A DNA stretch of 40,513 bases from Actinomycetota bacterium (GTDB taxonomy: Bacteria > Actinomycetota > Rubrobacteria > Rubrobacterales > Rubrobacteraceae). The DNA is taken from NCBI GenBank assembly GCA_902810695.1, contig CADDYV010000031.1:1-40513 (forward strand), read 5' to 3'. Shown one piece after another: positions 9,550 through 12,544 of this stretch (positions are counted from its first letter, which is position 1; the number at the start of each line of letters is the position of its first letter). Position numbers and translations under genes: made by a program. The notes beneath the pieces were generated by a model. It was not told the origin of the DNA, ran no database searches, and saw only the letters and a program-made list of their open reading frames with translations.

Positions 9550-11385
9550 CTACTCTACGGTAACGCTCTTGGCGAGGTTTCGCGGCTTGTCCACATCGAG
9601 CCCGCGTTCCTTGGCGACGTGGTAGGCGAGTAGCTGCAGCGGGACCGTTGCTACCAGGGAAGCGAGTATCTCGGGAACCTTCGGAACCGGCAGAACCACC
9701 TCGGCTATCTTCCTGGCTTCGGCGTCTCCTTCATCCGCAACCGCGATTATCTTCGCGCCGCGGGCGACGGTCTCCTGGATGTTGGAGAGGGTCTTCTCCC
9801 GCAGCACCCCTTCACCGAGGATGGCGACCACGGGACAGCTCTCGTCAATGAGGGCTATGGGGCCATGCTTCATCTCTCCTGCGGGGTACCCTTCGGCCGG
9901 GAGGTAGGAGATCTCCTTGAGCTTCAAGGCTCCTTCGAGCGCCACCGGATGAGCTACGCCCCGCCCCAGGAAGAGCGCGCAACGGGCGTCCTCGAATACA
10001 TCAACCGCACCCTCCATACAAACCTCAGAAAGTGCTATCGCCTCCTGGATCTTTTCCGGGGCCAGGCGCAGGCTCTTTCCAATCTCTTGCAGCTCATCTT
10101 CCAGCAGGCTCTTTTTCAGCCGGGCAAGCTCCAGGGCCAGGAGATCGAGAACAGCAACCTGGGTGAGAAAAGCCTTGGTAGAAGCGACGCAGATCTCTGG
10201 TCCGGCTTTGGTGAGCAGGACCGAGTCGGCTTCGCGGGTGATGAGTGAGCCTCGGGTGTTGGTGATGGCGAGCACATGCCCCCCGAAACCGTGCGCGGTC
10301 TCTATCGCAGCGAGAGTGTCCGTCGTCTCTCCACTCTGGGAGATGGCGATAACGAGTGTTTTTTCGTCTCCGATGGGATCGGAGTAGCGGTACTCGCTCG
10401 CTATTGCGACCTCCACGGGGATGCGGGCGAGGCGCTCTATTGTGTTTTTGCCCAGGAGCCCCGCGTGATAGGCGGTCCCGCAGGCGACGATGACGATCCG
10501 CTCGACATTCGAGAGATCCAGATCCACCTCCGAGAGATCCACATCCCCCTCCGCACCGAGCCTTCCGGCCAGGGTGGCCTGCAGAGCGGCGGGCTGCTCG
10601 TGGATCTCCTTGAGCATATAGTCCTCGTATCCCCCGAGCTCGACCGCCTCCGCATCCCACTCCACCCCGAAAGGCTCTCGCCTGACTTCCTTGCCATCGG
10701 GGCCGAAGATCTCGACCGAGGAGCTAGTTAGAACGGCGATCTCACCGTTCTCCACAAGGATAAACTTTCTCGTCTCACCCAAAAGAGCCTGCACCGCGCT
10801 GGCCAGGAAGTTCTCGCCGTCTCCGAGCCCGACGACCAGCGGACTCTGGTTGCGGGCTGCGACTATCGTGCCCGGTTCTTTCGCGCTCACCGCCGCTACC
10901 GCGAACGAACCTTCAAGCCTCTCCAGCGCCGCTCCAAGCGCCTCGCGCAGAGTATCTCCTTCCTCGACGCGTTCGGCGAGCAGGTGCGCTATCACTTCCG
11001 TGTCCGTCTCGGAGTTGAACGAGAATCCGCGCTCTTCGAGCTCTTCTCGGAGCTCCGCGTGGTTCTCGATGATGCCGTTGTGTACGACCGCAACCTTTTT
11101 ATCACCACCGAGATGGGGGTGGGCGTTTTCCTCGCTCGGCCGGCCGTGGGTCGCCCATCGGGTGTGGCCTATTCCGGTTCCGACCCGCTCGAATCTTCCG
11201 TTCGCCTCGCCAATGGCCTTGGAGAGCTCCCGTAGAGGGCCTACGCGCCTGATCGTCTCTATCTCCCCGCCAATCTGCAGAGCGAGCCCTGCGGAGTCAT
11301 ACCCCCGGTACTCCAGGTGCTTCAGCCCCTCCATCAGGACCTCTACGCACCTCTCTCTTCCTGCATACCCCACTATGCCGCACAT
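9550..11385 (-). CDS. glmS: Glutamine--fructose-6-phosphate aminotransferase (isomerizing)
   Basis: A 611-residue enzyme that makes glucosamine-6-phosphate from fructose-6-phosphate and glutamine, the first step toward UDP-GlcNAc and peptidoglycan. Cys2 in MCGIVGYAGRE becomes the N-terminal nucleophile after Met removal, which fixes the start at ATG 11385 rather than the upstream in-frame TTG. The glutaminase domain covers about 1-230. Two SIS sugar-isomerase domains follow, with SQSGETTDTLAAI and STKAFLTQ motifs, and the C-terminus ends DKPRNLAKSVTVE. A GGAGG lies 12 bases upstream. Its 5' leader carries a glmS ribozyme, so expression is very likely feedback-controlled by glucosamine-6-phosphate. 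Confidence 0.98.
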   Translation of the reverse strand: MCGIVGYAGRERCVEVLMEGLKHLEYRGYDSAGLALQIGGEIETIRRVGPLRELSKAIGEANGRFERVGTGIGHTRWATHGRPSEENAHPHLGGDKKVAVVHNGIIENHAELREELEERGFSFNSETDTEVIAHLLAERVEEGDTLREALGAALERLEGSFAVAAVSAKEPGTIVAARNQSPLVVGLGDGENFLASAVQALLGETRKFILVENGEIAVLTSSSVEIFGPDGKEVRREPFGVEWDAEAVELGGYEDYMLKEIHEQPAALQATLAGRLGAEGDVDLSEVDLDLSNVERIVIVACGTAYHAGLLGKNTIERLARIPVEVAIASEYRYSDPIGDEKTLVIAISQSGETTDTLAAIETAHGFGGHVLAITNTRGSLITREADSVLLTKAGPEICVASTKAFLTQVAVLDLLALELARLKKSLLEDELQEIGKSLRLAPEKIQEAIALSEVCMEGAVDVFEDARCALFLGRGVAHPVALEGALKLKEISYLPAEGYPAGEMKHGPIALIDESCPVVAILGEGVLREKTLSNIQETVARGAKIIAVADEGDAEARKIAEVVLPVPKVPEILASLVATVPLQLLAYHVAKERGLDVDKPRNLAKSVTVE

Positions 11386-11458
11386 GAGAACGTGCAACCT
11401 CCAATCTCTGGTTTCTTACGAGCAGAACCGGAGGGTTTTTGGAGAGAGGTTAACCTTT

Positions 11459-11603
11459 GAAGACCTGGACGATACTTTGTCTCCGGCGTCACCACCGGGA
11501 TTTGTTATCGCCCTGACGACCGTCTAGGAGCCGGGACGCACCCGCCGAATACCTCGATGAACGTCCACCTCGTCAACTCCCGAAGTTCAGGAGTCCTGGC
11601 GCT
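11459..11603 (-). promoter_or_regulatory. glmS ribozyme (glucosamine-6-phosphate-activated self-cleaving riboswitch)
   Basis: On the minus strand the leader reads AAGCGCCAGGACT, a short hairpin, GTTGACGAGG, and later ATCGAGGTATTCGGCGG followed by CGTCCCGGCT. These are the conserved blocks of the glmS ribozyme core. P1 is ACTCC/GGAGT (11594-11590 with 11580-11576). P2.1 has GGACG and CGTCC arms. P4 pairs GGGCGATA with TATCGTCC (11467-11474), enclosing ACAAATC and GACAAAG internal-loop strands and a small CCGG hairpin. By analogy, cleavage falls between A11603 and G11602. It lies 73 bases upstream of the glmS ATG. Glucosamine-6-phosphate would trigger cleavage and lower glmS mRNA. The rest of 11386-11779 holds the glmS ribosome binding site and about 176 bases of upstream leader with no other clear feature. 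Confidence 0.95.
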
Positions 11604-11779: not shown

Positions 11780-12544
11780 CTACAAGGCCCAGAGGTTTAT
11801 GACGCCAAACGCGACGAGGATGGCGATCATAACCGGCTGGTGGACGAAGTAGATGAGCAGCGAGTGCCTGCCCATGAACGCCAGAGGTCTTGCCGCACGC
11901 GGGGCAGGCTTGACACCGCGTGCCCCCTTCTTCCCGCTCCCGTAAATGATATTCCCGACGAACAGGCCGAGGAGCACCACGCCGAACCAGGGGAGCAGGG
12001 GCCGGTAGTCGGCCATAAAAAAGTGGGGTTCGATGCCGAAAGGCAAAAGCCACGGGTTTCCCGAGGAGAAGTGGTGGATCTGTATGTACGCCCCGACGAG
12101 GATGACGAGAACGCCCGCGATCAAGGTCGGAAGCCGGTACCTCAAAAAAGGATAAGCCAGGATTATGGAGACCCCGATCAGGTGCAGGATGCCAAACAGG
12201 ATCCAACCCGTATGCAAAGCCCAGCTCACCACCGTCAAGATCATCGCGTAGCCGAGTATTCTGAGCCCCCTCTTGAGATATTTGCCGAAGAGCTCCTGAT
12301 CTGGCGACTTCTCGCTAGCCCTGGAGAAGCTGATAGCCAGCGACACCCCCACCAGAAGCAGAAACGCGCTAGCCGTCGCGTCGGCGAAATGGCGCCAGAA
12401 ACCCCCTACCGCGTTGATCTTGTACCCGCCGAAGGTTTCGAGGTCGTACATGCAGTGGTAGAGGGCCATCATCAGGATGGCTACCCCGCGGGCGGCGTCA
12501 ACCCCCCAGAATCTGTAACCGCCGCGAGCGGCGCTGCGCTCCGT
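11780..12544 (-). CDS. DUF1624 / heparan-glucosaminide acetyltransferase-like membrane protein, start codon apparently lost
   Basis: A multi-helix membrane protein of the acyltransferase-type DUF1624 family. The family's N-terminal signature is read as RFWGVDAARGVAILMMALYH, with the conserved His in the first helix. It lies mostly upstream of the first canonical in-frame start (ATG 12472). Between the in-frame TGA at 12563-12565 and that ATG there is no ATG, GTG or TTG. An ACG at 12544 sits six bases after a GGAGAGGAG site and would give 254 residues, so it may be a mutated ATG or a rare start. The C-terminal part ends in an LLIYFVHQPVMI helix. The gene is upstream of the glmS ribozyme, and the acyl acceptor is unknown. 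Confidence 0.7.
   Translation of the reverse strand, partial: TERSAARGGYRFWGVDAARGVAILMMALYHCMYDLETFGGYKINAVGGFWRHFADATASAFLLLVGVSLAISFSRASEKSPDQELFGKYLKRGLRILGYAMILTVVSWALHTGWILFGILHLIGVSIILAYPFLRYRLPTLIAGVLVILVGAYIQIHHFSSGNPWLLPFGIEPHFFMADYRPLLPWFGVVLLGLFVGNIIYGSGKKGARGVKPAPRAARPLAFMGRHSLLIYFVHQPVMIAILVAFGVINLWAL

Follow-up and report, generated by a model that had tools for sequence, protein, structure and literature searches.

A glmS ribozyme in the leader of glmS

The glmS ribozyme is best known from Firmicutes, and the locus described here raises the question of whether such a ribozyme also precedes glmS, the gene for the first step of amino-sugar synthesis, in an actinobacterium. A preliminary description of the 40,513-nt stretch of DNA under study (the window) had named a glmS ribozyme on the minus strand and proposed an Infernal search with RF00234. 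When the window was searched against all of Rfam, RF00234 (glmS ribozyme) was the sole match, located on the minus strand at 11614-11457 with 108.9 bits (E 8.1e-25; gathering score 37 bits) and covering the full model, positions 1-167 of 167. It was also the only RF00234 match in the entire genome. The identity proposed for the element is therefore upheld: it is a well-conserved glmS ribozyme, of a known kind and with an ordinary function, in a little-noticed lineage.

The partner gene had likewise been named correctly, with the ORF at 9550-11385 (minus strand) encoding a glutamine--fructose-6-phosphate transaminase of 611 aa (TIGR01135, 787 bits; NF001484, 810 bits). The 3' end of the ribozyme lies 71 nt from the glmS ATG (11385), rather than the 73 bases given earlier, which places it in the 5' leader of this gene, and a ribosome binding site (GGAGG, 11398-11402) is found 12 nt 5' of the ATG. 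No promoter was recognised in a sigma-70 promoter scan upstream of the ribozyme. It should also be noted that the product of the gene upstream of the ribozyme (11780-12472, minus strand) is a membrane protein resembling heparan-alpha-glucosaminide N-acetyltransferase (PF07786, 205 bits), which makes this gene an amino-sugar-linked neighbour.

Structure of the ribozyme

All coordinates in this section refer to the minus strand, and the core is numbered as in PMC7125110, in which conserved core positions were found to be important for the glmS ribozyme. The conserved blocks that had been reported were located at 11603-11598 (A(-1)GCGCC), 11574-11568 (GACGAGG), 11558-11542 (ATCGA..TTCGGCGG) and 11513-11467 (P4/P4a). 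The predicted cleavage point falls between A(-1) at 11603 and G1 at 11602, the position expected previously, by homology and in agreement with the RF00234 alignment; AGCGCCAG is invariant in the 37 same-family ribozymes. Immediately downstream, the 5' strand of P2.2 (11596-11601) consists of C2 G3 C4 C5, a bulged A6 and G7, and pairs with CGGCG at 11547-11543 through five pairs that are invariant in all 36 distinct rows of the family alignment. The P1 hairpin of 8 bp (11575-11595), with double-sided changes at three pairs within the family, is followed by the core block GACGAGG (11568-11574), in which CGA (11572-11570) represents the 5' strand of P2.1 and forms three invariant pairs with 11557-11555. 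The P2 helix (11534-11566; 11566-11562 with 11538-11534) is built around AUCGA and UUCGGCGG. With the core blocks A(-1)GCGCC, GACGAGG, AUCGA and CGGCGG present, the double pseudoknot P2.1/P2.2 is formed in the window by eight pairs.

The peripheral elements P3, the P3.1 pseudoknot and P4/P4a with its GNRA loop are all present as well. P3 (11517-11533) is shortened to 4 bp (11533-11530 with 11520-11517), as had been suspected, with its loop free for P3.1. This pseudoknot joins the loop-3 strand AGAC (11525-11522) to GUCU in the 3' tail (11461-11464), and shows double-sided changes at three of its four pairs with 86.8% of cells paired. P3.1 is mostly G+C-rich in the relatives, and the window has A-U in place of G-C at two positions, a compensatory change since both sides were altered. 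P4 and P4a (11467-11513) are formed by 11513-11507 with 11473-11467 and by 11498-11493 with 11488-11483, respectively, with an internal loop ACAAA/ACAAAG and a P4a loop of GUGA. Plain MFE folding of the window ribozyme, which excludes pseudoknots, did not recover the core and gave a z-score of only -1.5.

Support for this structure, pseudoknots included, was counted in an alignment of 37 same-family ribozymes (36 distinct rows). The stated positions were paired in 96.5% of cells as against 35-51% when partners were slid by 1-3 columns, a control which keeps the relatedness among rows but somewhat favours the stated structure because this was read from one aligned sequence. In the 36 distinct rows, double-sided changes were detected at 14 pairs (shuffle mean 7.1) and in 55 cells (shuffle mean 16.0), with a covariation score of 0.185 (shuffle 0.116); none of 500 shuffles, a control that takes no account of relatedness among rows, reached the pair, cell or covariation-score values of the real alignment. 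Compensating variation was seen in P1, P2, P3.1, P4 and P4a, while the eight core pairs of P2.1 and P2.2 showed no variation and the core blocks were invariant in the 37 genomes. Between a quarter and a third of rows lacked pairing at the top of P1 and at one pair of P4 (alignment columns 129-170).

Distribution in the Rubrobacteria and beyond

The actinobacterial host suggested earlier was confirmed and narrowed to the class Rubrobacteria, as contigs of the same family with the same ribozyme match have been deposited as Rubrobacter sp. or Rubrobacteraceae (contig and genome pairs matched by their ribozymes: L087=G259:C162, L115=G248:C231, L121=G394:C45, L133=G354:C336, L155=G130:C582). Contig L128, deposited as an uncultured actinobacterium of the class Actinomycetes, has its ribozyme in the same position as G173:C103 and an identical GlmS. 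Judged from its sequence, L128 belongs to the Rubrobacteria and its taxonomic label is too broad or wrong.

In an even draw of the phylum, RF00234 was carried by 75 of 396 genomes, with most of the sampled Actinomycetota genomes having no match. In the Rubrobacteria the ribozyme was detected in 37 of 39 genomes, representing 13 genera, and in all 22 of the better assemblies, two of which are single contigs. The two remaining genomes also had no GlmS match, so that every sampled Rubrobacteria genome with a detected glmS has the ribozyme, and in all 37 carriers a GlmS start follows it at a distance of 62-233 nt. Across the phylum 71 of the 75 matches directly precede glmS, the other four all belonging to one family (f24, see below). 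Further ribozymes before glmS were found in named contigs of Thermoleophilia (L116, L126, L159) and Acidimicrobiia (L100, L189), in unclassified Actinomycetota contigs (L094, L132, L140, L175, L193) and, outside the phylum, in Caldisericota (L098), Armatimonadota (L080, 42.8 bits) and Chloroflexota (L119). Of the genomes included as search controls, Bacillus subtilis and Deinobacterium chartae had RF00234 matches. Pattern matches in Streptomyces, Actinomadura and others are probably due to chance, and no RF00234 match was obtained when the doubtful pattern matches L106, L112 and L136 were scanned.

With the ribozyme present in Rubrobacteria, other Actinomycetota and other phyla, its earlier description as characteristic of Firmicutes proves too narrow. 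The suggested extension to an actinobacterial lineage holds as to presence, but the surprise attached to it was overstated because the ribozyme is class-wide in Rubrobacteria, occurs in other phyla and scores far above the existing Rfam cut-off. Barrick and Breaker (2007; PMC2258182) noted GlcN6P riboswitches in a few groups of bacteria. A literature search combining the glmS ribozyme with Rubrobacter, Acidimicrobi or glnA returned nothing relevant, and earlier reports may exist.

Proposed mechanism and origin

Glucosamine-6-phosphate (GlcN6P) is the product of GlmS. The Rubrobacteria glmS leader almost certainly holds a canonical glmS ribozyme, by which GlcN6P-triggered self-cleavage and RNase J decay would lower GlmS, with the GlcN6P dependence and the decay step being inferred from the characterised Bacillus system. 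As it accumulates, GlcN6P would bind a preformed pocket as catalytic cofactor and the RNA would cleave itself between A(-1) (11603) and G1 (11602). The cleaved mRNA would be left with a 5'-hydroxyl and be degraded 5' to 3' by RNase J, upon which GlmS synthesis should fall. In B. subtilis, ribozyme cleavage has been linked to decay by RNase J1 (PMC3997798), and the genome of the window was found to encode a full-length RNase J (TIGR00649, 613 bits).

It is conceivable that the element is a degenerate relic in which the fold is kept and GlcN6P-responsive cleavage is lost, and some pairs of P1 and P4 do vary within the family. However, all core blocks are unchanged in the 37 genomes (13 genera) even as P1, P3.1 and P4a co-vary, a pattern that a relic would not be expected to keep, and this reading is very improbable. 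It is at least as hard to credit that the RNA serves as a GlcN6P aptamer with another expression platform, for instance one hiding the ribosome binding site, and with no cleavage or decay; this we regard as extremely improbable. Inspection of the sequence showed a possible pairing of AACCUC, near 11452, with the GGAGGUU stretch at the ribosome binding site, and the SD is paired in the predicted leader fold of many members. Yet the leaders (62-233 nt) differ between members in both length and sequence, and in most of them the predicted fold does not surpass that of shuffles (z -2.6 to +1.5), so that a second, translational platform is unsupported. An RNA acting purely as an aptamer would, moreover, have no use for A(-1)G1 and the catalytic core, both of which are retained. 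A conserved hairpin hiding the ribosome binding site 3' of the ribozyme was tested as a candidate and found to be unsupported.

The association of this ribozyme chiefly with Firmicutes in the literature would also fit a recent acquisition of glmS together with its ribozyme from that group, or contamination. The ribozyme is class-wide, however, single-contig assemblies included, and a quick tree of 72 GlmS proteins with an arbitrary root placed the window GlmS among those of actinobacteria, in a Rubrobacteria clade with 100% support. This clade adjoins GlmS of the Thermoleophilia type (91% SH-aLRT) and is separate from the Bacillota rows. As GlmS groups with that of other actinobacteria, it is unlikely to have been imported recently from Firmicutes, and acquisition or contamination is overall a very poor prospect beside a canonical ribozyme resident in the class. 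Ribozyme presence requires at least six changes on the GlmS tree, which thus does not distinguish an ancient ribozyme lost in some lineages from one gained repeatedly.

Ribozymes upstream of glnA

The four phylum matches that do not directly precede glmS come from the f24 family (G034, G059, G179 and G391), AT-rich Actinomycetota genomes of approximately 1.0-1.4 Mb; within the class of f24 the ribozyme was detected in 4 of 40 genomes, all of them f24. The gene order in this family is glmM - ribozyme - glnA - glmS, complete in contig L074 (2611-7702) with 46 nt between glnA and glmS, and the genes score 517 bits (glmM, TIGR01455), 533 bits (glnA, TIGR00653) and 773 bits (glmS, TIGR01135). Besides L074, the f24 arrangement was noted from contigs L069, L070, L075, L076-L079 and L213-L216. 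In G391 the ribozyme and the start of glnA lie on one contig and the glnA-glmS part on another. In none of the four genomes was a GlnA detected other than the ribozyme-linked one.

The f24 core carries matched changes, with C5A and A6U being accompanied by G53A on the opposite strand, as seen in L069 (4537-4790), L070 (4153-4402) and L074 (4129-4383), where the core GCGCA-U-G faces the partner CAGCGG. Such a core would form U6-A53 with A5 bulged, replacing C5-G53 with A6 bulged, and a similar bulge rearrangement has been seen among rescue mutants (PMC7125110). These three variants also have roughly 50 nt inserted at the periphery, between P2 and P2.1. The ribozyme of L075 (4574-4818) shows the further core changes C4A and G26T (GACGAGG to TACGAGG), and may be failing or inactive, or contain a sequence error.

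A canonical ribozyme (101.3 bits) was also found before glnA (578 bits) in the MAG CSSed165cm_413 (G398) on contig L114 (2418-862, minus strand), this being the only glnA detected in that MAG, and a second canonical ribozyme precedes glmS on L134 from 1664 onward. The MAG is labelled Sumerlaeota, a label that is doubtful as its GlmS is Bacillota-like and adjoins Sporomusa in the GlmS tree. It is apparently a second case of a glnA-ribozyme, independent of f24.

Glutamine synthetase makes the amino donor for GlmS. We consider the chances about even that an old, class-wide actinobacterial regulator was moved in f24 to a place before glnA-glmS, putting the sole detected glutamine synthetase under amino-sugar feedback through a core with a shifted bulge, with G398 as the second case. 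If confirmed, the arrangement would add a further target gene for the glmS ribozyme.

Comparison with known glmS ribozymes

The predicted GlcN6P-responsive ribozyme is the standard glmS leader across a whole actinobacterial class, though most sampled members of the phylum are without it, and GC-rich ribozymes, possibly from heat-tolerant hosts, thereby become usable for biochemistry. The prototypes of RF00234 are those of Bacillus subtilis, B. anthracis and Thermoanaerobacter tengcongensis. The window ribozyme shares with these the fold of P1, P2, P2.1, P2.2, P3, P3.1, P4 and P4a, the core blocks, the A(-1)/G1 site and the position relative to the gene. It differs from them in its high GC content, a P1 of variable length and a P3 of only 4 bp, and in its host, which belongs to the Rubrobacteria whereas those of the prototypes are Bacillota. 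As in Thermoleophilia, Acidimicrobiia and other Actinomycetota (L116, L126, L159, L100, L189, L094, L132, L140), it lies directly before glmS and scores above the Rfam cut-off. Some of these other actinobacterial ribozymes have lower scores (69-103 bits, compared with 94-115 in Rubrobacteria), and some contain insertions in the P2.1-P2.2 loop.
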